In this document: positions 30,368 through 48,301 of the stretch, in pieces
How the letters are laid out: every line of letters begins with the position of its first letter
Numbering within the stretch: the first letter of the stretch is position 1
Origin: Frigoribacterium sp. MEB024
GTDB taxonomy: Bacteria > Actinomycetota > Actinomycetes > Actinomycetales > Microbacteriaceae
Assembly: GCF_000878135.1 (NCBI RefSeq)
Contig: NZ_JXQZ01000014.1
Location: 1 to 64,000, forward strand
Direction of reading: 5' to 3'
Length of the DNA stretch: 64,000 bases
Translations under genes and position numbers: made by a program
The notes under the pieces: generated by a model
Told to the model about the DNA's origin: nothing
Database searches by the model: none
Seen by the model: only the letters and a program-made list of their open reading frames with translations

Positions 30368-30373
30368 TATAGT
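30368..30373 (+). promoter_or_regulatory. -10 element upstream of the LCP gene
   Basis: TATAGT about 50 bases before the LCP start codon. No convincing -35. It is the likely promoter of the plus-strand polysaccharide arm. Confidence 0.4.
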
Positions 30374-30424
30374 CAGATGCGCTGTGGCCGAGATCCGTGA
30401 CCGAGTGCTAGGGGAGCGAGCCGC

Positions 30425-31480
30425 ATGAGCGACATCTTCACGCTGACGCCGGACGAGGGCGACGGTGGCGAGCCGACGCCGCAGAAGAAGCGCAAGCGGC
30501 GTCGCTCGAAGCCGGTCATCGCTCTGATCACGCTGGCGTCGGTGCTGGTGGGGGTCATCGTGATCATCGGGGTCGTGGGCGGCGTCTACGCGTCCCGGCT
30601 GGCGAACTCGTTCAACGACAACGCGACGAAGATCGAGCAGGCCTTCCCCGAGGAGTCGACGCGTCCGGCGCCGGCACCCGACGGGGCGATGAACATCCTG
30701 CTGATGGGTTCGGACTCCCGGGCCGACGCGACGACCATCGACGACCCGTCGTCGTCGGACCAGCGGACCGACTCGATGATGCTGGTGCACGTCGACGCCG
30801 ACCGCGAGAACGTCTACGTGATGTCGATCATGCGCGACCTCTACGTGCCGATCCCTGACCACGGCTCGAACAAGATCAACGCGGCCTTTGCGTACGGCGG
30901 TTCGCCCTTGACGGTCCAGACGGTTGAGCAGCTGCTCGGCGTCCGCATCGACCACGTCGCCATCATCGACTTCGAGGGCTTCAAGGGCATGACGACGGCG
31001 CTGGGCGGGGTCGACGTGTTCTCGCCGCAGGCCTTCTCGACCAAGGGCGGCTTTTCCTACGTGGCCGGACTCAACAAACTCGAAGGCGACGCGGCGCTGG
31101 CGTTCGTCCGTGAGCGCTACGCGTTCGCGGACGCGGACTTCACCCGGGTCAAGAACCAGCAGGCGTTCGTCAAGGGTCTGGCCAACACGATCCTGAGCCG
31201 GTCGACACTGACCGACCCCGGCAAGGTCTCGGCCTTCGTCACGGCGATGTCGCCGTACCTCACCGTCGACAGAGAATTCGACATCGGAACGATCGCCTCG
31301 CTCGGCGTCAGTCTGCGGTCGATCGACGCATCGAAGATGCACTTCTTCACGGTGCCGACCGCTGGCACCGGCTCGGTGGGCGGCCAGTCCATCGTGAACG
31401 TCGACCAGTCCGGCCTCGACGCCGTCAAGGCCGCTCTGGCCAACGACTCGTTGAACACCCTGCCGATCGCGCAGAACTGA
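30425..31480 (+). CDS. LytR-CpsA-Psr (LCP) family cell-wall glycopolymer ligase
   Basis: 351 residues. A basic cytoplasmic N-terminus (KKRKRRRSK), one helix (about 33-57) and an external LCP domain beginning NILLMGSDSRAD, then TDSMMLVHVDADRENVYVMSIMRDLYV with the conserved Asp and Arg residues. LCP enzymes transfer polyprenyl-linked polymers to peptidoglycan. At the head of the polysaccharide locus it probably attaches the product made by the following genes. Confidence 0.9.
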   Translation: MSDIFTLTPDEGDGGEPTPQKKRKRRRSKPVIALITLASVLVGVIVIIGVVGGVYASRLANSFNDNATKIEQAFPEESTRPAPAPDGAMNILLMGSDSRADATTIDDPSSSDQRTDSMMLVHVDADRENVYVMSIMRDLYVPIPDHGSNKINAAFAYGGSPLTVQTVEQLLGVRIDHVAIIDFEGFKGMTTALGGVDVFSPQAFSTKGGFSYVAGLNKLEGDAALAFVRERYAFADADFTRVKNQQAFVKGLANTILSRSTLTDPGKVSAFVTAMSPYLTVDREFDIGTIASLGVSLRSIDASKMHFFTVPTAGTGSVGGQSIVNVDQSGLDAVKAALANDSLNTLPIAQN

Positions 31481-31584
31481 TTCGGCAGCGTCAGTCGACG
31501 ACTCGGTCGGTCCTCTCGGCATCAGCCGGCCCTCGTCGTTTCTCACCACCTCGGCGCGGTCACCTCAAGAGAAAGCCAGTGCAC

Positions 31585-31650
31585 ATGAACGAAGCCGTCG
31601 CGACAGAGGGAAGCCTTGCTCGCCTCCCACCGACCGGTTCTGGCCGATGA
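31585..31650 (+). CDS. 21-residue upstream ORF coupled to the acetyltransferase gene
   Basis: ATG at 31585, stop at 31648-31650 overlapping the next ATG at 31647. It ends ARLPPTGSGR. The acetyltransferase start has no Shine-Dalgarno of its own, so coupling is plausible. No other support. Confidence 0.3.
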   Translation: MNEAVATEGSLARLPPTGSGR

Positions 31651-32237
31651 GCTTCATCGCCGACTCGGCACAAGTCCACCCGACCTCGAGGATCGGTTCG
31701 GGTACGAAGATATGGGACCTCGCCCAAGTGCGCGAGCACGCCGTGATCGGCCTCGACTGCGTCGTCGGTCGCGCGGCCTACATCGACGAGGGCGTGCGCT
31801 TGGGCGACCGGTGCAAGGTGCAGAACGCGGCCCTGCTCTACGCCCCCGCGGTACTCGCCGACGGCGTGTTCGTCGGGCCCGGTGTGATCTTCACGAACGA
31901 CACCTACCCCCGAGCCGTCAATGCGGATGGTTCGGCCAAGGATGCGGACGACTGGACACCGACAGGGGTGTCCGTTTCGGAGGGTGCATCGATCGGCGCC
32001 CGCGCCGTGTGCGTCGCCCCGGTGGAGATCGGACGATGGGCCACCGTCGCAGCCGGTGCAGTGGTCACGCGAGACGTGCCCGACCACGCACTCGTCGTCG
32101 GCGTTCCCGCCCGACGCATCGGGTGGGTGGGCAAGAGTGGTCGTCGGCTGGTCACCGAGGGCACCGCCTGGCTCGACGAGACGACTCGAGAACGATACAA
32201 AGAGCGCGATGGCGTGCTGATGGAGATCACGAAATGA
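31647..32237 (+). CDS. WbpD-type sugar N-acetyltransferase (left-handed beta helix)
   Basis: 196 residues of hexapeptide repeats (IGSGTKIWDLAQVREHAVIG ... GVFVGPGVIFTND ... VEIGRWATVAAGAVVTRDVP). The HAVIG and FTNDTYPR segments match UDP-2-acetamido-3-amino-glucuronate N-acetyltransferases. It would acetylate the 3-amino group made by the next gene's aminotransferase. ATGA overlap with that gene. Confidence 0.85.
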   Translation: MSFIADSAQVHPTSRIGSGTKIWDLAQVREHAVIGLDCVVGRAAYIDEGVRLGDRCKVQNAALLYAPAVLADGVFVGPGVIFTNDTYPRAVNADGSAKDADDWTPTGVSVSEGASIGARAVCVAPVEIGRWATVAAGAVVTRDVPDHALVVGVPARRIGWVGKSGRRLVTEGTAWLDETTRERYKERDGVLMEITK

Positions 32238-33325
32238 CCATGGAATTCATACCGTCCGCACGCCCGCTGATCGGTGACGACGAGCGAGAGGCGGTCGACG
32301 CCGTCCTCCGTTCCGGCATGTTGGCACAGGGGCCGGAGGTCGCTGCGTTCGAGCAGGAGTTCTCGGCCGAGCTAACTCGCGGTCGTTCATCGGTTGCGGT
32401 CAACTCGGGCACCTCCGCCCTCCACCTGGGCCTCCTCGCTGCGGGAGTCGGGCCTGGTGACGAGGTCATCGTCCCGTCCTTCACGTTCGCGGCCACGGCG
32501 AACTCCGTTGCCCTCACCGGAGCGACGCCCGTCTTCGCCGACATCGACCCCGCGACGTTCTGTCTCGATGCAGCCTCTGTCGAGTCGTTCGTCACGGATC
32601 GCACGGTCGGAGTGATGCCCGTGCACCTCTATGGGCAGTCCGCCGACATGACCGCCCTCTCGGCCCTCGCCACGGACAAGGGCCTCCGCATCTTCGAAGA
32701 CGCAGCCCAAGCGCACGGTGCGACGTGGGACGGCCAGCAAGTCGGCACGTTCGGTGTGTTCGGGGCGTTCAGCCTCTACCCCACCAAGAACATGACTTCG
32801 GGAGAGGGCGGCATGCTCACCGTGGACGACGCGACTGTCGAACGGACGATCCGCCTGCTGCGCAACCAGGGGATGGACCGCCAGTACCAGAACGAGCTGG
32901 TGGGCTTCAACATGCGCATGACCGACCTCCACGCCGCCATCGGCAGGACGCAACTCCGCAAATTGGCCGGTTGGACGCAATCGCGTCGGGCCCACGCGGC
33001 CGAGTTCGATCGCCGGCTCCGGGGAGTGGTCACGCCTCCCGTTGCTGCAGGCGCCGGTCACGTCTACCACCAGTACACGATCCGTGTCGAAGACGACCGA
33101 GACGGCTTCGCGGCAGCGCTCAAGAGCGAATTCGCTGTCGGAAGCGGCGTGTACTACCCCGTGCCGAACCACCGACTGCCGTCCTTCGCGCGCGGTGTCG
33201 ATCTTCCGGAGACCGAGAAGGCAGCACGCGAGGTGCTCTCGATCCCCGTGCACCCGTCGCTCAACGAGACCGAGATCGATCGCATCGTCGACGCCGTGAA
33301 CATCCTCGCCACGGCAGGTGCATGA
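32234..33325 (+). CDS. WbpE-type DegT/DnrJ/EryC1 aminotransferase
   Basis: 363 residues, a PLP sugar aminotransferase. Motifs include NSGTSALHLGLLAAGVGPGD, the carboxylate in FEDAAQAHGA and the PLP lysine K185 in LYPTKNMTSGEGG. That lysine motif is typical of WbpE, which aminates the 3-keto UDP-GlcNAcA. ATGA overlaps on both sides. Confidence 0.88.
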   Translation: MTMEFIPSARPLIGDDEREAVDAVLRSGMLAQGPEVAAFEQEFSAELTRGRSSVAVNSGTSALHLGLLAAGVGPGDEVIVPSFTFAATANSVALTGATPVFADIDPATFCLDAASVESFVTDRTVGVMPVHLYGQSADMTALSALATDKGLRIFEDAAQAHGATWDGQQVGTFGVFGAFSLYPTKNMTSGEGGMLTVDDATVERTIRLLRNQGMDRQYQNELVGFNMRMTDLHAAIGRTQLRKLAGWTQSRRAHAAEFDRRLRGVVTPPVAAGAGHVYHQYTIRVEDDRDGFAAALKSEFAVGSGVYYPVPNHRLPSFARGVDLPETEKAAREVLSIPVHPSLNETEIDRIVDAVNILATAGA

Positions 33326-34317
33326 TGGGGGCGGTCATCAAGGTCGCTCTGGTCGGCCTGGGCATGATGGGCCGCCATCATGCGAGGGTGCTTCGGGGAG
33401 TGGACGGGGTCGAACTCGTCGCGGCCGTCGACGCCCAAGGAGACACACACAGGGCGCTCGGCCAGGGTGTTCCCCTGTTCACCACCGTCGAGCAGGCCAT
33501 CGAGCACGGCATCGACGCGGCCGTGGTCGCGGTGCCGACGATCTTCCACGAAGAGATCGGTCTTACCCTGGCCGCGGCGGGGGTCCACTGCCTGATCGAG
33601 AAACCCGTCGCGCACGACGTCGACGCCGGCCGGCGACTGGTCGAGGCCTTCGACGCCGCGGGCCTGGTCGGTGCCGTGGGGCACATCGAGCGTTACAACC
33701 CCGCCCTGCAGAGCCTCCGGTCCCGCATCGCGGCAGGCGATCTCGGCGAGGTCTACCAGATCGCGACGAGGCGGCAGGGTCCCTTCCCTGCCCGGATCGC
33801 GGACGTCGGTGTCGTCAAGGACCTGGCCACGCACGACATCGACCTTACGGCCTGGTTGGCACAGAGCGGATTCGAGACCATCTTCGCCCAGAGTGCCCAT
33901 CGCAGCGGCCGCCCTAACGAGGACCTCGTGTCTGTCTCGGGTCGCCTTCGCAACGGCATCGTCACGAACCACCTCGTGAACTGGCTCTCGCCGTTGAAAG
34001 AGCGCGTCACGACGGTCACGGGGGAGAAGGGAACGTTCGTCGCCGACACCATCACGGCCGACCTGACCTTCTTCGCCAACGGAACCGTGTCGACGAGCTG
34101 GGATTCGATCGCCGCGTTCCGGGGGGTGTCCGAAGGCGAGATGGTCCGCTATGCCCTGACGAAGCGGGAGCCGTTGCTCGTCGAGCACGAAGCCTTCCGC
34201 GACGCCATCCTTGGTCGCGCGAACGACATTGTCACTTTGCGGGACGGGCTCGACACGCTCCGAGTCGCCGAAGCGGTCGTCGAAGCGTCGCGCACCTCCA
34301 CCGCCATCACGATCTGA
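33322..34317 (+). CDS. WbpB-type Gfo/Idh/MocA sugar-nucleotide 3-dehydrogenase
   Basis: 331 residues. Rossmann motif VALVGLGMMGRHH at the N-terminus, EKPVAHDVDAG with the conserved Lys, and VVKDLATHDIDL with the catalytic His region. It would oxidise C3 of UDP-GlcNAcA. The ATG at 33322 overlaps the aminotransferase stop. Confidence 0.87.
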   Translation: MMGAVIKVALVGLGMMGRHHARVLRGVDGVELVAAVDAQGDTHRALGQGVPLFTTVEQAIEHGIDAAVVAVPTIFHEEIGLTLAAAGVHCLIEKPVAHDVDAGRRLVEAFDAAGLVGAVGHIERYNPALQSLRSRIAAGDLGEVYQIATRRQGPFPARIADVGVVKDLATHDIDLTAWLAQSGFETIFAQSAHRSGRPNEDLVSVSGRLRNGIVTNHLVNWLSPLKERVTTVTGEKGTFVADTITADLTFFANGTVSTSWDSIAAFRGVSEGEMVRYALTKREPLLVEHEAFRDAILGRANDIVTLRDGLDTLRVAEAVVEASRTSTAITI

Positions 34318-34327
34318 ACGGGAACCC

Positions 34328-35671
34328 ATGAGCAAGAACGTCCTCAACATCTCCGTCGTCGGCCTCGGAAAGATCGGCCTGCCCCTCGCGGTCCAGTTCG
34401 CGTCCAAGGGCCACGCGGTCTCCGGCGTCGACATCGACCAGAGGGTCGTGGATCTGGTGAACGGCGCTGTCGAGCCGTTCCCCGGCGAACACGGTCTCGC
34501 CGACGCACTGCGTGACGTGGTGCCTCGCGGGCTGCTCAAGGCCGTCACAAACTACGGCGATGCCATCGCCGACAGCGACGTCGTGGTCGTCGTCGTACCG
34601 CTGTTCGTCGACGACGAAGCACGACCCGACTTCGGGTGGATGGACTCCGCCACGCGGTCGATCGCCGAGCACATGACCCCGGGAACCCTCGTCTCGTACG
34701 AGACGACCCTGCCTGTCGGCACCACCCGAGACCGATGGGTTCCACTCCTGGCTGAAGGTAGTGGACTCGCCGAAGGCACGGACTTCCACGTCGTGTTCTC
34801 ACCCGAACGTGTCTTGACCGGGCGCGTCTTCAGCGATCTGCGCAAGTACCCGAAACTGATCGGCGGGCTGAGCGTCGAGGGTGCGCGCCAGGCTCGAGAC
34901 TTCTACGAGGCCGTCCTCGACTTCGACGAGCGTGCCGACCTGCCGCGGGCGAACGGCGTGTGGGACCTGGGCAGCGCGGAAGCGGCCGAACTCGCGAAGC
35001 TTGCCGAGACGACCTACCGGGACGTCAACATCGGACTCGCGAACGAGTTCGCGCTGTACGCCGATCGTGTGGGCATCGACGTCCACGCAGTGATCGACGC
35101 GTGCAACTCGCAGCCCTACAGCCACATCCACCGGCCCGGGATCGCCGTCGGAGGGCACTGCATCCCGGTCTACCCGCGTCTCTACCTCTGGAACGACCCT
35201 GGGGCCACGATCGTCAGCGCGGCCCGTGCCGCGAACGTCGCGATGCCTGCTCGCACCATCGATGCCTTGGCGGCGCTGCACGGAGACCTGACGGGCGAGA
35301 CCGTCGCCGTCCTCGGGGCCGCCTATCGCGGTGGCGTCAAGGAGACAGCCTTCTCGGGCATCTTCGATGCCGTCGATGCACTGAGGGCACGAGGGGCTCG
35401 TGTGCTCGTCAATGACCCCCTCTACACATCCGATGAGCTGGCGGCGTACGGATTCGAGTCGTTCCAGGAGGGACAGGCCGCTGACGCGCTCGTCCTGCAG
35501 GCGGATCACGAGGTCTACCAGAACTGGAGCCACGAGCAGGCGCCCGGCGTGCGCACCGTGATCGACGGTCGACGGGGTCTTGATTCGGGGGCCTGGGGCG
35601 AGGCAACGTTCGTCCGATTGGGTGATGGCGCGGCCGCGCGCTCTGGCGACATTAATCGCAGCGCCGTCTGA
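34328..35671 (+). CDS. WbpA-type UDP-GlcNAc/UDP-ManNAc 6-dehydrogenase
   Basis: 447 residues. NAD-binding ISVVGLGKIGLPLAVQFA, the central helix domain with TYRDVNIGLANEF, and the catalytic C278 in VGGHCIPVYP. It oxidises C6 of a UDP-HexNAc twice. With the three preceding genes it makes up the known WbpA-B-E-D route to UDP-2,3-diacetamido uronic acid. ATG at 34328, ten bases after the previous gene. Confidence 0.9.
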   Translation: MSKNVLNISVVGLGKIGLPLAVQFASKGHAVSGVDIDQRVVDLVNGAVEPFPGEHGLADALRDVVPRGLLKAVTNYGDAIADSDVVVVVVPLFVDDEARPDFGWMDSATRSIAEHMTPGTLVSYETTLPVGTTRDRWVPLLAEGSGLAEGTDFHVVFSPERVLTGRVFSDLRKYPKLIGGLSVEGARQARDFYEAVLDFDERADLPRANGVWDLGSAEAAELAKLAETTYRDVNIGLANEFALYADRVGIDVHAVIDACNSQPYSHIHRPGIAVGGHCIPVYPRLYLWNDPGATIVSAARAANVAMPARTIDALAALHGDLTGETVAVLGAAYRGGVKETAFSGIFDAVDALRARGARVLVNDPLYTSDELAAYGFESFQEGQAADALVLQADHEVYQNWSHEQAPGVRTVIDGRRGLDSGAWGEATFVRLGDGAAARSGDINRSAV

Positions 35672-35704
35672 CCCGGAGCCGGTAAAACCGGCACAAGCAT
35701 CAGC

Positions 35705-37051
35705 GTGGAACATTCAGGAGGTGAGAACAGGTCGTTGCCAAAAGCCAAATTTCGCCTGCCCACGCGGCTGAGAAGTGGTGTCGCTCTCATCCTGGCCGGC
35801 AGCATTGCCGGTCAAGGCATCATCGTCCTGTCCTCGCCCTTGCTCACCAGGCTCTATGACGCCGCAGATTTCGGATCTCTGGCCGTGATCACGTCCCTCT
35901 CAGCGATCGGAGGGGCCGTGGTCACGTTGAATTGGGAACGTGCTGTCGTCGTGCCCCGGAGCCCGGGAATCGCCAGGTCGCTCGTGTGGCTCGCTCTGGC
36001 CTCTGCCGTTGTCCTATCCAGCGTGCTGGCGCTCGTGGCCTGGCTTTCGAGAGACTGGCTGGCGACGACCTTCAGTGCACCGTTCCTGACGCGAGACTGG
36101 TGGTTGATCCCCGTCACCGTCATGGCCATCGCGCTCTTCAAGATCTACTCGAGCACGCTCACCCGCCGCCAAGCTTATGGCCGCCTTGGGATCCGGAATG
36201 CGATGCAGGGATGGGCTCAGGTCGCTTTCAACATCCTGATGGGGTTGGCAAGCGTCGGTGGTTCTTTGGGGCTCACCCTCGGAACAGCTGTCGGTCGGAT
36301 CTTTGCGGTGGGTGGTGCGGTGAGGGTCCGCAAACCCGTTACGGAACTTGTTCCACGTACAAAGCCCATTCCTCCGGGCCGCATGTTCGCAGTGGCCTCA
36401 GCAAGATTCCGCCGACTGCCACTCGTCTCCACGTGGTCCTCGTTGCTCAACGTCGTGGGGCTTCAGGCGCCCATCCTTGTGTTGACGGCCGCTTACGGGC
36501 TTTACGAGATAGGTTTCGTTGCGTTGACGATGCGCGTCCTGGCTGCCCCTGTCGGCATCATCGCTGACGCTACAGCTCAATACGTCGAGGGCTCTCTTGG
36601 TGTCCTCATTCGTGGACGTGCACGCATCGGACCCTTGCTGAACCGAACCGAGTTTTTCTTGGCCCTCATCGTCGTTCTACCACTAATCGCAATCATCGTG
36701 GGCGGGCCGTCGATCTTCTCCATTGTCTTCGGCGACGAATGGCGAACGGCAGGCCAGTACGCACGTATTTTCGCCCTCACGTATGCCCTCCAGTTGGTGG
36801 TGGTGCCCGTAAGCCGGGTGCTGCTGCTCATCGACCGAACGAAGGTCCAGCTCGCTTGGGACCTCAGCCGATCGATCATCGTCATCGGCGCAGTTGCCAT
36901 GGTGAGCAGCCTCGGAGCGTCGCTCACGACGGCCATCGTTGTTCTCGCGAGCGTCCAATCGATTATGTACGTGGCGCTGTTGGTCCTCATTCGCATAACT
37001 GTCGCTAACCACGATGGGAGGGGAGAAATCGATGTCTCAAGCGTTTCCTAG
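35705..37051 (+). CDS. Wzx-type oligosaccharide flippase
   Basis: 448 residues with about 12 hydrophobic segments; the start RLRSGVALILAGSIAGQGIIVLSSPLLTRLYDAADFG is typical of the polysaccharide flippase family. It moves the lipid-linked repeat unit across the membrane. The start is uncertain: GTG 35705 has no ribosome-binding site, whereas TTG 35735 in the same frame follows AGGAGG (35716-35721) at 13 bases. Base use is visibly richer in A/T than upstream, hinting at exchange. Confidence 0.85.
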   Translation: MEHSGGENRSLPKAKFRLPTRLRSGVALILAGSIAGQGIIVLSSPLLTRLYDAADFGSLAVITSLSAIGGAVVTLNWERAVVVPRSPGIARSLVWLALASAVVLSSVLALVAWLSRDWLATTFSAPFLTRDWWLIPVTVMAIALFKIYSSTLTRRQAYGRLGIRNAMQGWAQVAFNILMGLASVGGSLGLTLGTAVGRIFAVGGAVRVRKPVTELVPRTKPIPPGRMFAVASARFRRLPLVSTWSSLLNVVGLQAPILVLTAAYGLYEIGFVALTMRVLAAPVGIIADATAQYVEGSLGVLIRGRARIGPLLNRTEFFLALIVVLPLIAIIVGGPSIFSIVFGDEWRTAGQYARIFALTYALQLVVVPVSRVLLLIDRTKVQLAWDLSRSIIVIGAVAMVSSLGASLTTAIVVLASVQSIMYVALLVLIRITVANHDGRGEIDVSSVS

Positions 37052-37168
37052 ACGGGCCAAGCAAGCCTTGGCGTCGTCAACGTTTTCGAGCACCGCCGGC
37101 GAGCCATCTCTCCTGCAATACTGCTGCCCACCCGGTTGGCACGTTGGTGCCAGCGGTAAGGAGTCATA

Positions 37169-38404
37169 GTGCGTAAGCAGAATGGAGCTCTTACCAGAGC
37201 CCATGTCGTAGACGCCGTGGTCCCGTTCTCCTGCGTTCTTCTTCTCTTCTCAGGTGCTGTCAAAAGCAGCCCAGCCCTCGGTTGGCTGCCGTTCGATCTA
37301 ACGCTCGCGAGTGCCTCGCTTGTCGTCCTGGGAATAGCTATACGGCTTGTCAGGGCCGGGACGTCGTTCGTTGTTGAGCCGAAAGCCGTTCTGTTTCTGG
37401 TGGCTTTTCTGCCGGGCTGGTTCTTTGGGGTTCAGAACGATTACGCGAGCGACAAGCTCCAGGGGATGCTGTTGACGGTGATTGCCGTGGCAGGGTCGTT
37501 CTATCTTCTAGCCAACGAGCGACGTCGGCGCTATTGGGTCATGTGGTTTGTGGTGTTGGGTGCGGCCGTCCTCCTTAACGGTCTTATTTTTCCGAATCTC
37601 GAAGTCACCCTGGGGCGGCTTGCCGCAGAGGGGTCGAACACGATCACGGCCGGCCGCGCCACAGGAGCTGCGCTCGTCATCGCCTTCAGCCTTCTACTGG
37701 TGTCCCGCGGCGCCTCTCGGATCGCTCTAGCCGCCCTGGCTGTCGTGTTCGCCTACGGCATGTTGGAGTCGGGCTCACGAGGACCAGTGTTTGCGGCCGC
37801 TCTAGCTGTCGTGGCTGTGGCGGTGTTCGTCAGTCGCCAGGGCAAGTTCCGGCGAATCCTGCTTGTTGCCATTGGACTAGTTGTCGCATGGCTGTTCATA
37901 ACGAGGAGCAGTAGCTCGGGTATTGAGCGAATCCAGGGTGCTTTCGCTTCTGATGGCTCTGCCACAGCTTCGCGAGATGCCATCTGGGCTGCGGCAACGC
38001 GATACATCTCCGACGTGCCCCAGTCTTTCACCGGTGTGGGCTGGGCCAACTTCTCCTCTGTTCTTCGCAATGGTGAAGCATTGGACTCCGGTGACCGCCA
38101 GTATGCGCACAACGTCGTGCTCGAAACCCTCGTGGAAGGTGGCTGGATCGCAGGTCTGGCGACTGTGGTGTTTTTGGTCCTGTCCTTGGTTCGATTGCGT
38201 CGGCAGGCCGTGACCCCAGTCGGAGTGGTCCTGTTCGCGATGGGCGTCTATTTCGTTGTGAATGCCATGGTTTCAGGCGACGTGAATGACAACAGAATGA
38301 TGTGGGCCACGTTGGCTCTGTCTTGGATCGTTCCCCTTGACCACCGTAGAGACGGTGTCGTAGACGCACGAAGTCGACCTGACAAGAGTCTGCAGCGACA
38401 CTAA
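37169..38404 (+). CDS. Wzy-type O-antigen polymerase/ligase membrane protein
   Basis: 411 residues, about 10-12 transmembrane segments. The C-terminal half carries YAHNVVLETLVEGGW, the Wzy_C-like HN...E..G motif of O-antigen ligases and polymerases, and RGPVFAAALAVV upstream. It would polymerise flipped repeat units. GTG at 37169 behind AAGGAG. Lower GC than flanks. Confidence 0.85.
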   Translation: MRKQNGALTRAHVVDAVVPFSCVLLLFSGAVKSSPALGWLPFDLTLASASLVVLGIAIRLVRAGTSFVVEPKAVLFLVAFLPGWFFGVQNDYASDKLQGMLLTVIAVAGSFYLLANERRRRYWVMWFVVLGAAVLLNGLIFPNLEVTLGRLAAEGSNTITAGRATGAALVIAFSLLLVSRGASRIALAALAVVFAYGMLESGSRGPVFAAALAVVAVAVFVSRQGKFRRILLVAIGLVVAWLFITRSSSSGIERIQGAFASDGSATASRDAIWAAATRYISDVPQSFTGVGWANFSSVLRNGEALDSGDRQYAHNVVLETLVEGGWIAGLATVVFLVLSLVRLRRQAVTPVGVVLFAMGVYFVVNAMVSGDVNDNRMMWATLALSWIVPLDHRRDGVVDARSRPDKSLQRH

Positions 38405-38648
38405 AAAAGCCTGCTCAATGCACGAGCGATTAGGACACGTCCGAGGCTGCTCGTTCATGGGCGCGTAGAAGCAAGCCCTCGGCCCGACAGCAAACCATTG
38501 TCCGACTATGCCCATTCGTTAGCTCTCGGCCGCATAGGAGTCGAAGGTCTGACGGACCGCCAGTCAAAGGAGGGTTGATTCTCGTGGTTCAGAGGTCAGC
38601 ATGGCCGAGCCGTAAAAATTGAAGACAATCGTCAGGCGAGACAGCGCA
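38405..38648. other. 244-base gap between convergent wzy-like and GT4 genes
   Basis: Relatively A/T-rich. I see no ORF of meaningful size, no strong hairpin and no insertion-sequence end. This is where the two arms of the polysaccharide locus meet. Confidence 0.5.
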
Positions 38649-39785: not shown

Positions 39786-39790
39786 GGCTA

Positions 39791-41056: not shown

Positions 41057-41694
41057 CGTGCGGGAACACCTTTCACGGTGGTAAAGGCCGGTACATCACG
41101 CGTAACGCAGGCAGCGGCACCGACCGTCGCGCCACGACCCACGTGGAGGCCCTGCAGAATCACAGCACCGGCGCCGACCAGACTTTCGTCCAGGATGACG
41201 ACGCCTCCTGAAATGATTGCGCCTGGATTCACCGAGACGCAGGCTTCCAACCGAGCGTCGTGCCCGATCGTCGAGTTTGGATTGAGGTGCACGTGCGGAC
41301 CGATCTCGACGCCCGTCGACACTTGAGTCCCGGCACAAATGACCGACCCTTCACCTACGCTCGTCAGAGTGCCGATCTCAGCTCTGGGATGAATCACCGT
41401 TGCGGCGGTGAGGCCATGGGAACCGATCTGATCTGCGATCTGGGCTCGACTCGCTGGCGAACCGACCGCGATGACATAGGCCGCTGACGGGTTCGTGAGA
41501 AGCCACTCGGCAAGAGGGCCCAACCAGCGGATGCCGCGTCGAGAGAGGAGAAGGAGGGCGGACTCGGAGGGGGCGTCGTCCACGACGCCGAGAACATGCC
41601 AGCTCCCCGGGGACTGCTTCTCGATGGCGTCCAGGACGTCCAGCGTCTCGCGCCCGAAACCGCCGGCCCCGACGACGACGATGTCAATGTTCAT
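41053..41694 (-). CDS. PglD/NeuD-type acetyltransferase
   Basis: 213 residues. An N-terminal Rossmann-like domain (DIVVVGAGGFGRETLDVLDAI) precedes a left-handed beta helix (GVEIGPHVHLNPNSTIGHDARL), the PglD architecture. It would N-acetylate UDP-4-amino-4,6-dideoxy-GlcNAc to UDP-diacetylbacillosamine. The start MNIDIVVVG at 41694 lies inside the end of the upstream sugar transferase gene (11-base overlap). Confidence 0.85.
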   Translation of the reverse strand: MNIDIVVVGAGGFGRETLDVLDAIEKQSPGSWHVLGVVDDAPSESALLLLSRRGIRWLGPLAEWLLTNPSAAYVIAVGSPASRAQIADQIGSHGLTAATVIHPRAEIGTLTSVGEGSVICAGTQVSTGVEIGPHVHLNPNSTIGHDARLEACVSVNPGAIISGGVVILDESLVGAGAVILQGLHVGRGATVGAAACVTRDVPAFTTVKGVPAR

Positions 41695-42316
41695 GGAGCA
41701 CGCCCCCATTGCCGACGAATTCAGCCGACGTCACCGAGGTCGAGTCCGTGATGCCCTCCCGGCGGAGGACTTTCCTCACCGTCGACAAGAGAATCCGCAG
41801 ATCACCTACGAACGACCTGGTCTCGACGTAGCGCACGTCGAGCTCGAGCTTGTCCGCCCACGAGATCGCATTGCGGCCGTTGACCTGGGCGAGTCCGGTC
41901 ACGCCGGGGCGGACGTCGTGACGGCGAGCCTGCCTGGGGGAGTAGCGCTCGAGATAGCGAACGAGCAAGGGGCGCGGTCCGACGAGGCTCATGTCGCCCC
42001 GCAGCACGTTCCACAACGTGGGTAGTTCGTCGAGGCTCGTCGAGCGCAGGATGGCTCCGAAAGCCGTCATGCGGTCCTTGTCCGTCACCAAGCCGCGGGC
42101 CTCGTCGACGGGCAACATCGTGCGGAACTTCACTAGGTCGAAGACCTTGGCGCCCTTGCCCGGGCGCGCCTGGACGAACAGCACCGGCCGCCCTAGGCGT
42201 CGGGCGATGACGGCGGCCAACACGAGTTGGACGGGGGCGGTGACGACCAGCCCGCCACCGGCGACGGCGACGTCGATTGTACGCTTGGCAATTCGATCTG
42301 CGAGCCCTGCCTTCAT
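41684..42316 (-). CDS. PglC-type initiating sugar-phosphate transferase
   Basis: 210 residues. A single N-terminal re-entrant hydrophobic segment (VAVAGGGLVVTAPVQLVLAAVIA), KFRTM, then TSLDELPTLWNVLRGDMSLVGPRPLL, the bacterial sugar transferase signature. The small size, without extra membrane domains, matches monotopic PglC-type enzymes that put diacetylbacillosamine phosphate on undecaprenyl phosphate. ATG 42316 overlaps the aminotransferase stop. Confidence 0.9.
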   Translation of the reverse strand: MKAGLADRIAKRTIDVAVAGGGLVVTAPVQLVLAAVIARRLGRPVLFVQARPGKGAKVFDLVKFRTMLPVDEARGLVTDKDRMTAFGAILRSTSLDELPTLWNVLRGDMSLVGPRPLLVRYLERYSPRQARRHDVRPGVTGLAQVNGRNAISWADKLELDVRYVETRSFVGDLRILLSTVRKVLRREGITDSTSVTSAEFVGNGGVLHEH

Positions 42317-43446
42317 GAGGCGTCCAAGAAGGACTGGATGCGGTCCTGGACGCGATCTCGCTGCCCGGCGTCGAGAGCCGAACCGCTCGGCAGCGTCAGC
42401 CCGAGCTCGAAGAGTCGCTCGGAGGCACCCGTCACGCGCGCACGAGCCGACACGAACACGGGCTGCAGGTGCATGGGCTTCCACAACGGACGCGACTCGA
42501 TCTGCACCTCGGCCAACCAGGCCGACAGATCGGCCGGCGCCCAACCGGTGACCGAACGGTCGACGAGGATCGATGTCAGCCACACGTTGTCGAATTCGTC
42601 GCCGTCGCGACCGAAGATCTCGACACCCTCGACCCCGGCGAAGAGCGAGGCGTACAACTCACGCATCTCTCGGCGCCGAGCGATCATCTTGTCGAGTCGG
42701 GTCAGCTGTGCCCGTCCGAGGGCCGCCAACAGGTTGCTGAGACGGTAGTTATAGCCGATCTCGGTGTGCTCGTAATGGGCGACGGGCTGTCGGGCCTGCG
42801 TCGACAGGTAACGCACACGCTGCGCCAGGTCTCCGTCGTCGGTCAGTAACATGCCGCCGCCCGATGTCGTCATGATCTTGTTGCCGTTGAACGAGACCGC
42901 GGACGCATCGCCGAACGATCCGGCGGCACGTCCTCGATGAGATGCGCCGAGCGACTCCGCTGCGTCGACGAGCAGTCGCACGCCGTGTCGATCGGTGAGC
43001 TCGGTGATGGCGGTGTAGTCGACGGCCTTCCCGAGCAGGTCGACGGGCACGACCGCGCCCACTCGTTCGCCCGAGGCCGTGAGCTCGTCGAGAACACCGG
43101 AGAGCAGGACCGGGTCCATGTTGCCGGTCTCGGGGTCACAGTCGACGAAGTACGGCTCGGCGCCCGTGTAGGCGATGGCGTTCGCCGTTGCGGCGAAGGT
43201 CATCGAGGACGTGGGCACGACGTCACCCGGTCCCACGCCCCAGGCGACGAGAGCGACGTGCAGGGCCGACGTGCCCGAGTTGAGGGCCACGCCGTGCCCT
43301 ACCCCGACCCGCTCGGCGACTTCGCGCTCGAAGGCGTCGACGTCCGGGCCCAGGGGAGCGATCCAGCCGCCGGCCATGGCCGCCAGAACGTACTGCTGCT
43401 CGAGTTCGCCCACGTCGGGCGAGCTCATGTAGATCCGTTCGGTCAC
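42313..43446 (-). CDS. PglE-type DegT/DnrJ/EryC1 aminotransferase
   Basis: 377 residues. Starts IYMSSPDVGELEQQYVLAAMAGGWIAPLGPDV, as in PglE and related 4-aminotransferases. NSGTSALHVALVAWGVGPGD, DAAESLGASH and the PLP lysine in SFNGNKIMTTSGGG (near 187) are clear. It would aminate the 4-keto product of the adjacent dehydratase. GTG 43446 overlaps that gene's stop. Confidence 0.9.
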   Translation of the reverse strand: MTERIYMSSPDVGELEQQYVLAAMAGGWIAPLGPDVDAFEREVAERVGVGHGVALNSGTSALHVALVAWGVGPGDVVPTSSMTFAATANAIAYTGAEPYFVDCDPETGNMDPVLLSGVLDELTASGERVGAVVPVDLLGKAVDYTAITELTDRHGVRLLVDAAESLGASHRGRAAGSFGDASAVSFNGNKIMTTSGGGMLLTDDGDLAQRVRYLSTQARQPVAHYEHTEIGYNYRLSNLLAALGRAQLTRLDKMIARRREMRELYASLFAGVEGVEIFGRDGDEFDNVWLTSILVDRSVTGWAPADLSAWLAEVQIESRPLWKPMHLQPVFVSARARVTGASERLFELGLTLPSGSALDAGQRDRVQDRIQSFLDAS

Positions 43447-45245
43447 TCGGGTACTTCCTGTTTCGGGTTGAGACTGAGCTCCGCGGTCCACGGGCCCGAG
43501 TGAGCGTGCACGCCGTCGAGTTGAGACGGGTGCAAAGCGGGGACGGCAGTGTGCGAGATCTTCGGGTGGACGGGACGGTTGTCGCTCTCGCCGAGGCCGA
43601 CGAGTTCCTCGTGCATCTTCTCGCCCTCGCGCAGACCGGTGTAGACGATGCCGATGTCCCTGCCCGACATGGCGATCATCCGCTCGGCGATGTCGAGGAT
43701 GCGCACGGGCTCGCCCATGTCGAGGATGAGGACCTCGCTGGGCGCCCCAATGCCACCGGCCTGCACCACGAGGTGGCACGCCTCGGGAATGGTCATGAAG
43801 AACCGCGTCACGTCGGGGTGTGTGACGGTCAGCGGGCCACCGGCCTCGATCAGGGACGTGAACACGGGCAGCATCGACCCGCGGCTGCCGAGCACGTTGC
43901 CGAACCGCACCGACAGGTAGCGCGCACCGGTCTCGTCCGCGGCCCACGCGGTCAACCGCTCGGCGAGCCGCTTAGAGTGCCCGAGCACGCTCGTCGGGTT
44001 CGCGGCCTTGTCGGTCGAGATGTTGACGAAGGTCGTCACCCCGACCGCCTTGCTCGCGTCCAGCACGTTCTGCGTGCCGAGCACGTTGGTCTTCCACGCC
44101 TCGTCCGGGTACTGCTCGAGCATCGGCAGGTGCTTAAGTGCCGCCGCATGAAAGACCACCTCGGGTCGACGGTCCGCGAAGATCGCTCGCAGCGCGTCCG
44201 CGTCCCTGATGTCGGCGAGCACGACCTCTCTCGTGTCGAGCAGGCCGTTGCCCGAGATCGACAACTGTGACTGCTGCAGGCCGGTCTCGTCACGGTCGAG
44301 CATGATCAGCTCGGACGGGCCGAACTTGGCGATCTGGCGGCACAGCTCGCTGCCGATCGAGCCGCCGGCGCCGGTCACGAGCACGCGCTTGCCCGCCAGG
44401 TAGCCCGCGATCGATTCGACCTGAGTGTCGACGGGGTGGCGGCCGATGATGTCCTCGATCGCGATGTCGCGCACGTCGCCGAGTCGCGACCTGCCCTCGA
44501 GGATCTCGTCCAGCAGCGGCAGCACCATCACCCGAAGGCCGGCCTCGGCCGCCCGGTCGGTGACGTCCTGCAACAGGGGAGCATCGGCCTTGGCGATGCC
44601 GACGATGATCGCCTTCGCCCCACTCCGCTCGGCCGCGGCGACGAGGTCGTGACGCGTGCCCACGACATGGACGCCCTCGATGCGCAACCCCGCCCGAGAA
44701 GGGTCGTCGTCGATCAGGCCCACGGGGAGGTACGGCGATTCGGGGTCCGTCAGCATGCGGCGGATGAGGTGGTTCGCCAGACGACCCGCGCCGAAGATCA
44801 GAGTCGGCTGGGCTCCCTCGCCCGGACGGTGCTGACTGTCGACGTAAAGGCGCGCCACGTAGCGCAGCGCCCCCATGAAGACGAAGGCGACCGGCAGGGC
44901 GATCAACATCGTGCTTCGCGCCAGCATGATCTCCGTCCCGAACACCAGCACCGGGACACCCACGGCGATCCCGGTCACGACCACGACCCGCATGATGGTG
45001 CGCACCTCGGCGAAGCTGCCCGGTACGAACCGGCGACGGTAGAGCCCGGTCGCATAGCCGAGCGCCGCGCCGAGCAGGACGGTCACGGTGGCGACGCCGA
45101 GGACCGCGGTCCACGTGACGGCGTCGTACGAGAAGTCGTAGCGCAGCGACACGGCGAAGACGATCGCGACGACCCAGACCAGGGCATCGAGCGCGACCTG
45201 CAGGCCGGTGCGCCGGGCCGGTGAGGCCATGAACCGGTCGATCAC
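43443..45245 (-). CDS. PglF/CapD-type membrane UDP-GlcNAc 4,6-dehydratase
   Basis: 600 residues. Four N-terminal transmembrane segments (about 10-130), a first nucleotide-binding-like domain (LIFGAGRLANHLIRRM), then the SDR catalytic domain: VLVTGAGGSIGSELCRQI near 290 and STDKAANPTSVLGHSKRLAE with the conserved Lys of this long form. GTG 45245 gives a GTGA overlap with the preceding stop. First enzyme of the bacillosamine set. Confidence 0.92.
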   Translation of the reverse strand: MIDRFMASPARRTGLQVALDALVWVVAIVFAVSLRYDFSYDAVTWTAVLGVATVTVLLGAALGYATGLYRRRFVPGSFAEVRTIMRVVVVTGIAVGVPVLVFGTEIMLARSTMLIALPVAFVFMGALRYVARLYVDSQHRPGEGAQPTLIFGAGRLANHLIRRMLTDPESPYLPVGLIDDDPSRAGLRIEGVHVVGTRHDLVAAAERSGAKAIIVGIAKADAPLLQDVTDRAAEAGLRVMVLPLLDEILEGRSRLGDVRDIAIEDIIGRHPVDTQVESIAGYLAGKRVLVTGAGGSIGSELCRQIAKFGPSELIMLDRDETGLQQSQLSISGNGLLDTREVVLADIRDADALRAIFADRRPEVVFHAAALKHLPMLEQYPDEAWKTNVLGTQNVLDASKAVGVTTFVNISTDKAANPTSVLGHSKRLAERLTAWAADETGARYLSVRFGNVLGSRGSMLPVFTSLIEAGGPLTVTHPDVTRFFMTIPEACHLVVQAGGIGAPSEVLILDMGEPVRILDIAERMIAMSGRDIGIVYTGLREGEKMHEELVGLGESDNRPVHPKISHTAVPALHPSQLDGVHAHSGPWTAELSLNPKQEVPE

Positions 45246-46216
45246 CAGGTCACCCCACCGTTGGTCGAAATCAGCACGGTGTCGTCGGCCCACAGCCACA
45301 AGGCGTCCGTCCCGGCGGACAGGGTGACAGAACCCGGGGTTGCGGAGGATGCCGGAGCGCAGCCTACGCGTGTCGAGTCGGCGCCCGGTGCGGACGCGGG
45401 TACGGAGACCGCGGTTCCCTCGCAGTCGGCAGCGCCGACCGAGGCGACGAGGTAGGTGCCCACGTCCGCGGTCACGGCCACTGCGCCCTCGACTGCCGTC
45501 CCGGAATCCCAGGTGCTCGCGCCGTCAGTCGTCCGGAAGAACCGGCGGTCGCTGCACAGCACGCCGGCTTCGGTGTCGCTGATGACCGCGAGGTCGACGA
45601 CCGCCGCGCACGGAGCTGGACGGTCACCCGCAGGGGAGTGCACGGTGCCCGGGGTGGACCGCGCGACGAACCACGAGGCGGCCAGTCGCTCGGGGTAGTC
45701 GCGGAACTCGGCCCCGCCCGAAAAGGTCTGCGAGAACGCCGTGGCGCAGGTCGTGCCGGCCGGGCCGACGACGAAGGCCGATACCGCGTCCATGGCCTGC
45801 ACCCGGTCGATGGCAGCTGGGTCTCCGCTGGTGGACACCGACAGCGGCGACCAGGTCGCCCCGGCTGACGTCGTCAGTTCGAGCGTGGGGGACGGCCCCG
45901 CCCTCCCGGGCGTGCACGTGCCGGACTCGGCCCGCCATGCGGTGACGGCATCGACCGCCGACAGCAGTCGCGTCGGGGTGACGGCCTCGGCCACGGGCGT
46001 CGGCGTCTCGGTCGGTTCCGGCGCGACTGTGGTCTCGACCGGCACGGGCGTCGGCGTGACGGCGGGTTGGGCGTCGGCAGCCAGACCAGACGGTTCGCGG
46101 GTGAACGCGAGCGCGACGAGTCCGAGGTCGACGAGGGCGAAGGCGCCGATGCCGATCAGGGCGAGTCGGCGGCGGGCCCGGGCTTGCGAGCCCCGCTTGC
46201 GACGAGCGTCAGGCAT
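45242..46216 (-). CDS. Membrane-anchored or secreted Asp-box protein of unknown function
   Basis: 324 residues. Basic N-terminus, one helix (about 19-40), a Thr/Pro/Val linker (VTPTPVPVETTVAPEPTETP), then a beta-rich external domain with four or more Cys. Three Asp-box-like motifs stand out: TTSAGATW, TTDGASTW and STNGGVTW, the last forming the very C-terminus. Asp boxes mark beta-propellers of sialidase or YCF48 type, though three blades are few. Overlaps on both sides put it in the polysaccharide operon. It may bind the glycan or a biosynthetic enzyme outside the membrane. Confidence 0.65.
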   Translation of the reverse strand: MPDARRKRGSQARARRRLALIGIGAFALVDLGLVALAFTREPSGLAADAQPAVTPTPVPVETTVAPEPTETPTPVAEAVTPTRLLSAVDAVTAWRAESGTCTPGRAGPSPTLELTTSAGATWSPLSVSTSGDPAAIDRVQAMDAVSAFVVGPAGTTCATAFSQTFSGGAEFRDYPERLAASWFVARSTPGTVHSPAGDRPAPCAAVVDLAVISDTEAGVLCSDRRFFRTTDGASTWDSGTAVEGAVAVTADVGTYLVASVGAADCEGTAVSVPASAPGADSTRVGCAPASSATPGSVTLSAGTDALWLWADDTVLISTNGGVTW

Positions 46217-46854
46217 CAGCGGTCACCCCCGTCGAGGGCGGCGGCGCGGGTCAGCAGCTCGACGAGCGTGTCGGCCGCGGGCACCAGTTGGCGACCCGAC
46301 GCGGCGAACGTCTCGTCCGAGCGGCGATACGGGTCGACCACGTCGTCGTCCAGTGGATCGTTCGGAGCCTCGACCGAGCCGCGTCGCGAGGCGAGCAGGG
46401 CGACGGTGGCCCGCAGCCGGTCGGCCACCGTCGAGGCACCCGCCGGCAGGGCGTCGGCGAGCTGCACATCGGTCACGTCGCGAGCGAGGCGGGCGGCCTC
46501 GCGAAGCGTGAAGGTGTACCGGCTGGACCGGGGGTGCATCGAGACCACGGCGCGACGGTGTTCGCGGGCCAGGGCGATGACGAGGTCGGCGCCGCGGACG
46601 TCGCGCTCGAAGAGGAAGCGCGCCCGATGCTCGTCGGGTTCGAGGTCGAACGACCGGGCCAGGGCCCTGGCCTGCTCGGGCATCACGTCGTCGTCGACGG
46701 CCATGGTGCCCGCGCTCGACACGGCGACGTCGTCGAGGGGCGAGAGACCGCGGCGCAGGTAGAGCTCGGCCAAGGGCGACCGGCAGATGTTGCCCGTGCA
46801 GACCGTGAGCAGCGAGAAGGTGGACGGCGTGGGCTGGGGGATCAGGAACGACAT
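46216..46854 (-). CDS. Low-molecular-weight protein tyrosine phosphatase
   Basis: 212 residues. The catalytic P-loop VCTGNICRSP (Cys 19, Arg 25) is near the N-terminus and DPYRRSDE near 174 supplies the general acid Asp. Such Wzb/PtpA-like enzymes dephosphorylate the tyrosine kinase beside them and so set polymer length and export. The kinase gene is immediately upstream (seven bases). Confidence 0.9.
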   Translation of the reverse strand: MSFLIPQPTPSTFSLLTVCTGNICRSPLAELYLRRGLSPLDDVAVSSAGTMAVDDDVMPEQARALARSFDLEPDEHRARFLFERDVRGADLVIALAREHRRAVVSMHPRSSRYTFTLREAARLARDVTDVQLADALPAGASTVADRLRATVALLASRRGSVEAPNDPLDDDVVDPYRRSDETFAASGRQLVPAADTLVELLTRAAALDGGDR

Positions 46855-46861
46855 CTCGCGC

Positions 46862-48301
46862 CTACTTCGCCGTGCGTGAACTCGTCTTCGGAGCGGCCGG
46901 CAGGTCGCCGACGCCGGCCTCGGGGGTGTCCTGCTCCATGCCGTAGTACGCCCCGTAGTTGCCGTAACCGTAGGCGTCGGGCCCCTTCGTGGGCAGCATG
47001 GTCAGCACGATGCCGTGCACCTTGCTGCCGATGTGCTCGAGGTTGCGCAACGCGGACTGCAGCTCGTTGCGAGTCGTACGGCCCGCGGCCGACACGACTA
47101 TCGCACCGCCGGTCAGCTTGCTGAGGATGGCCGCGTCGGTCACCGGCAGCAGGGGAGGTGCGTCGATGAGCACGTAGTCGAACGACGTCGTCAGCGATTC
47201 GATGAGCGCCGACATGGCCTTCGAGCCGAGCAGCTCGCTCGGGTTCGGGGGAACGCGACCGGCCGGCAGCACGTACATCGTGCCGCGGCCCCAAGGCTGC
47301 AGGACGTCCTGCAGGTCCGCGCGGCCGATCAACACGTCGGTCAGCCCGACGACGCCCTCGAGGCCCAACGTGTCGGCCAGGCGGGGCAGCCGCAGGTCGC
47401 CGTCGACCACGGCCACCGTGGCCCCGGTCTCGGCGAGGGCCACCGCGAGGTTGGCCGTCGTGGTCGTCTTGCCCTCACCGGGCAGCGACGAGGTGACGAC
47501 GAAGCAGCGGCTCTGCGACTCGACGTTGACGAACTGCAGGTTGGTCCGCAGGGTGCGGAACGACTCGGACCGCGGGTTGCGCGGATCGACGTGCACGATC
47601 AACGGGTGCTTCTTCGCCCCGGGGTCGAAGCTGATGCCGCCGACGATGGGCGCGTCGGTCACGAGTTCGACGTCGTGCGAGCCGTGGATGCGGGTGTCGA
47701 GGGTGCTGCGCAGCACCGCTGCACCGACGCCGAGGGCCAACCCGATCAGGAGGCCCAGACCGAGGTTGAGGGCGGTGCGGGGGGTCGCGGGTGTCGAGGC
47801 GACCGACCCGGGGACGATCGTGGCGATCTTGACCAGGCTCGCGCCTCCACCGGTCGGCGTCTCGAGCTCGTTGACGACGACGTCGGTGAGGGAGGTACCC
47901 ACCGCGTTGGCGATGTCGGCGGCGCGTTGGGCGTCGGTGTCGGTCACCGTGATGTTGATCAGCACGGTGTTGAGGGGTGATTCGGCAGTGATCATCGAGG
48001 CGAGGCCGGCCGCCGTGGTGTCCAGGCTGAGCTGGTCGATCACCGGGTCGAGCACCGCGTCGCTCGTCACGACGTCGACGTACGACCTGACCTTCTGTTG
48101 GGCTGCGCTGCTGCCCTGCACGGCGTCGACCGTGGTCGACGAGTCCTGCGCCTGGACCGAGACGAACAACCGGGTCGACGACACGTAGGTCGGCGTCGCC
48201 AGGATCGAGCTGAGCGCTCCCGCAGCGAGGCCGACGAGCGTCAGAGCGGCGATGAAGATCCAGCCCTTACGGAGAATGCGGATGTAGTCACGGAGTTCCA
48301 C
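46862..48301 (-). CDS. Wzz domain / BY-type tyrosine autokinase
   Basis: 479 residues. An N-terminal Wzz domain with helices about 14-34 and 175-195 surrounds an external coil; the cytoplasmic kinase has Walker A LPGEGKTTTT (K278), Walker A' VVDGDLRLPR and Walker B VLIDAPPLL. The C-terminal tyrosine cluster (AYGYGNYGAYYG) is the autophosphorylation site. It controls chain length and export of the polysaccharide. The GTG at 48301 starts ELRDYIRILRKGW, the usual beginning. First gene of the minus-strand operon. Confidence 0.93.
   Translation of the reverse strand: MELRDYIRILRKGWIFIAALTLVGLAAGALSSILATPTYVSSTRLFVSVQAQDSSTTVDAVQGSSAAQQKVRSYVDVVTSDAVLDPVIDQLSLDTTAAGLASMITAESPLNTVLINITVTDTDAQRAADIANAVGTSLTDVVVNELETPTGGGASLVKIATIVPGSVASTPATPRTALNLGLGLLIGLALGVGAAVLRSTLDTRIHGSHDVELVTDAPIVGGISFDPGAKKHPLIVHVDPRNPRSESFRTLRTNLQFVNVESQSRCFVVTSSLPGEGKTTTTANLAVALAETGATVAVVDGDLRLPRLADTLGLEGVVGLTDVLIGRADLQDVLQPWGRGTMYVLPAGRVPPNPSELLGSKAMSALIESLTTSFDYVLIDAPPLLPVTDAAILSKLTGGAIVVSAAGRTTRNELQSALRNLEHIGSKVHGIVLTMLPTKGPDAYGYGNYGAYYGMEQDTPEAGVGDLPAAPKTSSRTAK

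Follow-up and report, generated by a model that had tools for sequence, protein, structure and literature searches.

What kind of wall polymer would a Gram-positive actinobacterium build from a locus carrying gene sets for two diacetamido sugars, and do the two sets form a fixed pair? The locus in question occupies positions 30425-48301 of a 64,000-nucleotide stretch of Frigoribacterium sp. MEB024 DNA (contig NZ_JXQZ01000014.1), referred to here as the window. It consists of 16 genes in two runs that converge on the interval 38404-38649. In the plus arm (30425-38404) the genes encode a LytR-CpsA-Psr (LCP) wall-polymer ligase, WbpD, WbpE, WbpB, WbpA, Wzx and Wzy, whereas the minus arm (48301 down to 38649) encodes a Wzz/tyrosine kinase, a phosphatase, a 324-aa membrane protein, PglF, PglE, PglC, PglD and two family 4 glycosyltransferases (GT4a and GT4b). 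All 16 frames are open, from the ATG of LCP at 30425 to a GTG of the Wzz/kinase gene at 48301, and 15 of them have a Pfam match, which confirms the gene sets and order given in a preliminary description of the window made from its letters. The locus is a swappable cassette, with conserved flanks and nearly unrelated interiors in close relatives. Its product is probably a wall-linked, acidic Wzx/Wzy polysaccharide containing both sugars, for which enzyme substrates, repeat unit, wall attachment and mode of exchange are predicted.

The exchange was followed in 16 genomes of the genus, that of the window (G000) included; 10 of the other 15 were inspected at the site, which was anchored on LCP, PglF and the neighbouring dehydrogenase gene (48631-49851). 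The full locus occupies the site in six genomes (G000, G110, G153, G154, G157 and G158), PglF alone is left in three (G151, G155 and G162), and in five the site was not placed, the dehydrogenase anchor falling below the cut-off (G035, G150, G152, G159 and G160). In G156, LCP directly adjoins the dehydrogenase gene and the interior is gone. G161 has lost 30313-47296, and since a fragment of the kinase gene is left, the absence of the locus there appears to be a secondary loss; the deletion scar (C1:682049-682054, L129) retains the N-terminal remnant of that gene. The constant frame comprises LCP on the left and PglF, the 324-aa membrane protein, the phosphatase and the kinase on the right. In the five other full-locus genomes LCP is 80-96% identical, LCP, PglF and kinase together show 80-97% protein identity, and the 324-aa protein is 60-85% identical. 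Nucleotide similarity with these five loci breaks off where LCP ends (31447-31474). It picks up again at 41636 (G154), 42348 (G157), 42453 (G158), 43464 (G153) or 43540 (G110), all points in the stretch from the start of PglD to the end of PglF, only matches longer than 200-250 bases being listed; G157 additionally matches the window over 344 bases in PglC. The interiors of the other full loci measure 7.7-15.1 kb. The 12-kb interior of the window has 331 bases in common with one of the five, and the most that any two interiors have in common is about 4.1 kb (G153/G157). The G+C content at third codon positions is 0.65-0.86 for cassette genes versus 0.85-0.97 for nine genes outside. Exchange would proceed by homologous recombination in the constant frame.

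A Pfam scan of 20 interior genes from G154, G158, G157 and G110 (none from G153) recognised Wzy, flippase, GT4, phosphoglycosyl transferase (PGT), acyltransferase and dehydrogenase genes, three genes remaining without a family; a WecA-type PGT is among those of G110. G153 and G157 carry a short PglF-domain gene, FnlA-like by eye and 36-37% identical to PglF, and inside the exchanged cassette of G157 a GT4 is fused to a PglC-like PGT (617 aa; L108:6320-8170). LCP is directly followed in G153, G154, G157 and G158 by a gene for a dehydrogenase of uridine diphosphate (UDP)-sugars, 31-32% identical to WbpA of the window, so that their polymers are probably acidic, with different uronic acids. Within the genus, PglE is found in 10 of the 16 genomes and WbpB in 3. 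The description had placed the Wbp and Pgl arms together in one locus; this holds for the window, whereas across the genus there is no fixed pairing, and at this site the interior is exchanged.

Gene classes were taken from Pfam and NCBIfam profiles, and enzyme subtypes from sequence matches to solved structures; in several searches the PglF and kinase queries had 2-3 extra residues or a longer open frame. The specific Wbp and Pgl identities proposed earlier are good for PglF, PglC, PglD and WbpD, and for PglE, WbpE, WbpB and WbpA they amount to family plus context. PglF matches WlaL (5bju), which we take to be C. jejuni PglF, at 1.1e-75, and the next distinct solved enzyme, CapE, at 2.7e-39. 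An inverting PseB- or FnlA-type dehydratase was rejected because the corresponding NCBIfam cut-offs were not reached (173.3 of 407.75 bits and 139.3 of 730, respectively). The protein retains STDK and, when aligned with 5bju, has Leu at the position of a Met in PglF, where inverting dehydratases have Tyr; the STDK-region motif was found in 14 of 15 compared sequences, with Leu in all 14. The gene is thus assigned, with good support from these comparisons, to a predicted full-length, membrane-type, non-inverting 4,6-dehydratase. The match of PglC to C. concisus PglC (8e37) covers residues 4-202 of 210, and the two proteins have PRPLLV.YL and VNGRNAISW in common. PglD passes TIGR03570 (185.1 bits, cut-off 160.8) and has a PglD_N domain. 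For PglE, the solved matches are 7b0m (4.1e-71), 1o61 (4.5e-70) and 4ztc (3e-69), the latter two presumably C. jejuni PglE, followed by perosamine synthetase (5.9e-67); the C-terminal segment resembles the C. jejuni PglE entries, which rank second and third.

In the plus arm, WbpD matches 3mqg, which we take to be WlbB, over residues 4-190 of 196, the next solved relative being at 4e-23 and QdtC at 3.9e-14. WbpE is certainly of the DegT aminotransferase class, its predicted substrate coming from context: it matches 7b0d (4e-80), WbpE 3nyu (2.1e-66) and QdtB (1.1e-62), with perosamine synthetases and the transaminase 2oga also above 3nyu. A regular-expression pattern written for a WbpE motif hit none of the 80 relatives and was not used further. 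A route to deoxythymidine diphosphate-linked 3-amino sugars (Qdt/Fdt) was rejected: QdtB lies near WbpE, but QdtC is far behind WlbB, and no such isomerase is matched among the 16 genes. The best family for WbpB is NF040723, an archaeal UDP-N-acetylglucosamine (UDP-GlcNAc) 3-dehydrogenase, at 204.7 bits (cut-off of 450 not reached; next family 108.2 bits); its solved relatives score 1e-20 or weaker, and EKP and D..HD occur in WbpB and its relatives. WbpA reaches 299.1 bits with TIGR03026 (cut-off 189.8) and 240.6 bits with NF040825, versus 122.6 for TviB and 93.6 for TuaD, its solved match being 4r16 (3.9e-63). There is no 2-epimerase in the locus. The whole genome has a single PF02350 2-epimerase gene, on contig C47, which adjoins a WbcJ/CapF-type reductase gene (203.9 bits, cut-off 500) preceded by an FnlA-like dehydratase gene (443.1 bits, cut-off 730), and looks like part of a set for UDP-N-acetylfucosamine (UDP-FucNAc). 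Because the locus lacks a 2-epimerase and the only one in the genome stands in that set, the uronic acid is likelier to be the gluco form, GlcNAc3NAcA, than the manno form, ManNAc3NAcA. A diacetamido uronic acid in the repeat, as first proposed, fits its gene set, with C2 probably gluco.

Relatives of WbpB with 63-71% identity are widespread in Actinobacteria; the named ones are the best 80 of 554 confirmed matches. At set identity limits, WbpD was found in 72 of these 80, WbpE in all 80 and WbpA in 58; WbpD, WbpE and WbpB lie within 4 kb in 69, which argues against a chance grouping, and the complete set of four Wbp genes occurs in 55. A PglC-like enzyme occurs in six (L050, L053, L060, L065, L076 and L089), three of which have PglE and PglF too (L065 from Curtobacterium, L076 from Terracoccus and L089 from Terrabacter). 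These counts are minima: no flank exceeded 10 kb, and in 10 of the 80 the whole locus spanned 20 kb or less. Curtobacterium L065 combines both sugar sets with Wzx, both GT4 genes and the kinase, and GT4b is 46-50% identical in the Curtobacterium loci L050, L053, L060 and L065. In a sample of 150 genomes of the family, WbpB was present in 31, PglE at 60% identity or more in 18 (24 at the E cut-off) and both in 11 (Fisher p = 6.6e-5, kinship ignored); the two genes lie within 30 kb in 3 of these 11, the window's own genome included. G156 and G160 carry a grouping of WbpD-E-B-A, Wzx, PglC, PglD, GT4a and PglE on contigs other than that of the best LCP.

Family matches support the Wzx/Wzy route, PglC-type initiating enzyme and LCP wall ligase that the description had proposed, since a PGT, a flippase, a polymerase, a Wzz/kinase and an LCP protein are all encoded at the locus. 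PglF, PglE and PglD would convert UDP-GlcNAc to UDP-N,N'-diacetylbacillosamine (UDP-QuiNAc4NAc), and PglC would transfer QuiNAc4NAc phosphate onto undecaprenyl phosphate. WbpA, WbpB, WbpE and WbpD would convert UDP-GlcNAc to UDP-GlcNAc3NAcA, which one GT4 would add, the other supplying a third, ordinary sugar. Wzx would flip the unit of about three sugars, Wzy would join units under the control of the Wzz/tyrosine kinase and the phosphatase, and LCP would attach the chain to peptidoglycan. The cassette between LCP and PglF would be swapped between strains within its constant frame, much as in capsule serotypes. The PglF, E, D and C enzymes recur in the Campylobacter pgl system, which makes a protein N-glycan with an oligosaccharyl transferase. 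No oligosaccharyl transferase was found among the family matches of the 16 genes, and Campylobacter-like protein glycosylation was rejected because Wzy, Wzz/kinase and LCP indicate a polymer. The assembly steps match the Wzy route as described in PMC7831098. Bacillosamine had been placed at the reducing end of the polymer; this cannot stand, because Wzy polymerisation repeats the initiating sugar, so QuiNAc4NAc would be present in every repeat. In the B. subtilis EpsA-O polymer, the initiating sugar was found in each repeat by nuclear magnetic resonance (NMR) (PMC11447030).

Several observations weigh against a wall-linked polymer with these two sugars, and they bear on four alternatives, taken here from the more to the less probable. 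Attachment to the wall, as opposed to secretion of the chain, is a prediction, and the product may instead be released as an exopolysaccharide or form a capsule that is only loosely held, in which case LCP would act on another polymer. A second LCP gene exists on C47, G156 retains LCP though its cassette is gone, and the closest bacillosamine operon makes EpsA-O, an exopolysaccharide of biofilms (PMC11447030); nevertheless, LCP stands at the same edge in all six full-locus genomes among the 16 of the genus, and we regard secretion as unlikely. It is rather unlikely that the first sugar is not bacillosamine, the PGT and the PglE-like enzyme using or making another 4-amino sugar such as FucNAc4NAc or 4-amino-FucNAc. 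Such a sugar is suggested by the PglE gene, for which perosamine synthetase trails C. jejuni PglE by only about 10 bits, so that its assignment leans on the neighbouring genes. Furthermore, Curtobacterium L050, L053 and L060 have the Wbp set, both GT4 genes and a PGT 58-60% identical to PglC, and their genomes yielded no PglE at E <= 1e-60; G160 yielded no PglF at E <= 1e-100 despite its PglE, PglC, PglD and Wbp set. PglC, PglE and the Wbp set can thus travel without the whole bacillosamine route. In G157 and G158, PglF and PglE are retained, but the PGT differs and the region read gave no PglD match, and in a small PGT tree of few sequences C. concisus PglC falls with the PGTs of C47, G157 and G158, apart from that of the window. 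Bacillosamine is favoured by the presence of a PglD of the right subfamily and by the two PglC motifs mentioned above, which in the PGTs of the PglE-less Curtobacterium loci read PRPTL and GRNALPW; the PGTs of other PglE-bearing loci vary at these positions.

The two remaining alternatives concern the uronic acid, for which none of WbpE, WbpB and WbpA passes the cut-off of a specific NCBIfam equivalog. It seems improbable that this sugar ends as ManNAc3NAcA, or that WbpA acts on UDP-N-acetylmannosamine (UDP-ManNAc), with the C47 2-epimerase also serving the locus. WbpA scores highest with UDP-ManNAc dehydrogenases and the C47 epimerase, at 235.3 bits, lies above the wecB cut-off of 210.15, which makes a UDP-ManNAc supply possible. 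Moreover, a 2-epimerase lies in the locus in 43 of the best 80 of 554 relatives (35 of 70 among loci longer than 20 kb), L065 included. The C47 epimerase, however, stands beside FnlA-like and WbcJ/CapF-like genes, both under their cut-offs, and a 2-epimerase has its own step in a UDP-FucNAc-type pathway. Streptomyces offers a precedent for either form: S. griseus uses ManNAc3NAcA and has two epimerases, both absent from the locus of S. antibioticus, whose polymer contains GlcNAc3NAcA (PMC13274773). Least probable of all is a route in which C6 oxidation is missing or follows the 3-dehydrogenase, aminotransferase and acetyltransferase steps, so that UDP-GlcNAc becomes UDP-GlcNAc3NAc, while WbpA supplies a separate uronic acid. 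This would suit the archaeal UDP-GlcNAc 3-dehydrogenase family matched by WbpB, the position of WbpA, which follows D-E-B here and lies elsewhere in many relatives, and the WbpE/WbpB-like pairs that occur without D and A on the two Streptomyces plasmid stretches inspected (L130 and L131, WbpB 56% and 54% identical). It is countered by the assignment of the same four activities to GlcNAc3NAcA or ManNAc3NAcA in Streptomyces (PMC13274773) and P. aeruginosa (PMC10622841), and by there being only two GT4 genes for extra sugars.

How, then, does a polymer with QuiNAc4NAc and GlcNAc3NAcA compare with known systems? Pneumococcal-type cps loci have an LCP gene at the edge, kinase and phosphatase regulators, and an exchangeable middle with Wzx, Wzy and transferases. 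The locus in the window is alike in these respects (for cps2A, see PMC7831098); it differs in having LCP and the kinase/phosphatase at opposite ends and PglF in the constant side. The view that both sugars are described mainly in Gram-negative bacteria is out of date, because B. subtilis EpsA-O and Streptomyces teichuronic-like polymers contain them, as established by NMR (PMC11447030, PMC10653937, PMC13274773). The Streptomyces Utr loci of S. griseus and S. antibioticus likewise specify an actinobacterial wall polymer, with a dehydrogenase, an aminotransferase/oxidase pair and an N-acetyltransferase assigned to GlcNAc3NAcA, and with gene content that varies between related species; S. antibioticus, which lacks the epimerases, makes the gluco sugar (PMC13274773). 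In contrast, TarS/TarM-like enzymes join the Utr polymer to the ribitol phosphate of wall teichoic acid (PMC13274773), whereas a PglC/Wzx/Wzy/LCP route and a second diacetamido sugar are predicted in the window. The B. subtilis epsA-O operon is similar in its Gram-positive host, its PglF/E/D/C-like set (EpsC, EpsN, EpsM, EpsL), its tyrosine kinase and its flippase (PMC10653937, PMC11447030). QuiNAc4NAc was placed in the EpsA-O repeat by NMR (PMC11447030), as it is predicted from genes in the window. That repeat, as published, has no GlcNAc3NAcA, the polymer serves biofilms, and six glycosyltransferases are predicted (PMC10653937, PMC11447030). P. aeruginosa shares the WbpA, B, E and D steps from UDP-GlcNAc, but has the epimerase WbpI, of which the locus in the window has no counterpart, and makes a lipopolysaccharide O-antigen (PMC10622841). 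GlcNAc3NAcA also occurs in archaeal N-glycans (PMC2952790). A report of one polymer with both sugars was not found in the literature searched, which is weak evidence of absence. The predicted chemistry would thus be a new combination of known parts, in a locus of the already known serotype-like Wzx/Wzy wall-polysaccharide type, and the cassette structure is the more interesting result.

The features of the locus are listed in Table 1. Neighbouring pairs within the arms (n = 14, starts as chosen) overlap by 1-11 bases in nine cases and are separated by 7-166 in five, and because of these overlaps each arm looks like a single operon. In the convergent gap, a terminator scan gave a single weak minus-strand candidate (38427-38413; 0.3 expected).

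Table 1. Coordinates, strands and diagnostic matches of the genes and the exchangeable cassette in the window.
Feature	Position	Strand	Match or remark
LCP (LytR-CpsA-Psr) wall-polymer ligase	30425..31480	+	PF03816 3e-43; TIGR00350 above cut-off
WbpD/WlbB-type N-acetyltransferase	31647..32237	+	3mqg 1.7e-33
WbpE-type (3-)aminotransferase	32234..33325	+	PF01041 1.2e-118
WbpB-type Gfo/Idh 3-dehydrogenase	33322..34317	+	NF040723 2.2e-60
WbpA-type UDP-HexNAc 6-dehydrogenase	34328..35671	+	TIGR03026 above cut-off
Wzx flippase	35705..37051	+	PF13440 3.6e-07
Wzy polymerase	37169..38404	+	PF04932 2e-16
GT4 glycosyltransferase b	38649..39794	-	PF00534, PF13692
GT4 glycosyltransferase a	39791..41056	-	PF13579, PF13692
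PglD-type 4-amino-sugar N-acetyltransferase	41053..41694	-	PF17836 PglD_N 7.3e-10; TIGR03570
PglC-type small monotopic PGT	41684..42316	-	8e37 7.2e-58
PglE-type 4-aminotransferase	42313..43446	-	7b0m 4.1e-71
PglF-type membrane UDP-GlcNAc 4,6-dehydratase	43443..45245	-	PF02719 3.9e-103; start possibly upstream, to 45299
324-aa membrane protein, Asp-box-like motifs	45242..46216	-	no Pfam match
Low-molecular-weight tyrosine phosphatase	46216..46854	-	PF01451 1.4e-17
Wzz-tyrosine autokinase fusion	46862..48301	-	PF02706 2.2e-12; TIGR01007 178.7 bits, above cut-off; open frame to 48619
Exchangeable cassette, other polysaccharide genes there in sister genomes	31474..43464		nucleotide match limits, GC3 (G+C at third codon positions)

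The gene without a Pfam match, between those for the phosphatase and PglF, encodes the 324-aa protein, versions of which (31-34% identical) lie near Wzz/kinase genes in G074, L076 and L089. Its recurrence beside the genes for Wzz/kinase and phosphatase makes it a candidate for a hitherto overlooked component in export or ligation. A low-confidence AlphaFold2 model from a three-row alignment has a mean predicted local distance difference test score of 46, with no residue at 90 or above and one predicted helix (11-39). Elsewhere in the genome, a second polysaccharide locus (L100, G000 C47:1-12000; L009) has a PglC-like PGT, a Wzz/kinase, the FnlA-like and WbcJ/CapF-like genes and the 2-epimerase, the second LCP gene lying at C47:11359-12300. 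A second PglF-like dehydratase, 60-61% identical to that of the window, is encoded at G000 C38:13728-15428 (L101 / L002). On the Streptomyces stretches L130 and L131, the WbpE/WbpB-like pair stands beside genes for a TauD dioxygenase, an FAD oxidoreductase and phosphopantetheine-binding proteins, where it perhaps serves a natural product with a 3-amino sugar.

More tentatively, and as a reading less likely than not, we propose a single actinobacterial wall polymer with both N,N'-diacetylbacillosamine and GlcNAc3NAcA in its repeat, made by a serotype-switching locus in which PglF would be a fixed hub feeding the 4-keto-sugar branch of whichever cassette is present. Pressure from phages, or from lectin-guided antibacterial toxins, that recognise the wall polymer might drive such switching. 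If true, such a Gram-positive wall polymer would join two sugars that the papers cited here describe in separate polymers, and with only two GT4 genes to assign, its chemistry lends itself to simple tests. The genus also offers a ready strain set for studying the forces behind variation in wall polymers, since its LCP, PglF, kinase and phosphatase genes stay constant around interiors that differ almost completely, and empty and decayed sites occur as well. In Streptomyces, umbrella toxins use teichuronic polymers of this uronic acid as receptors (PMC13274773), and a testable selective force therefore exists.

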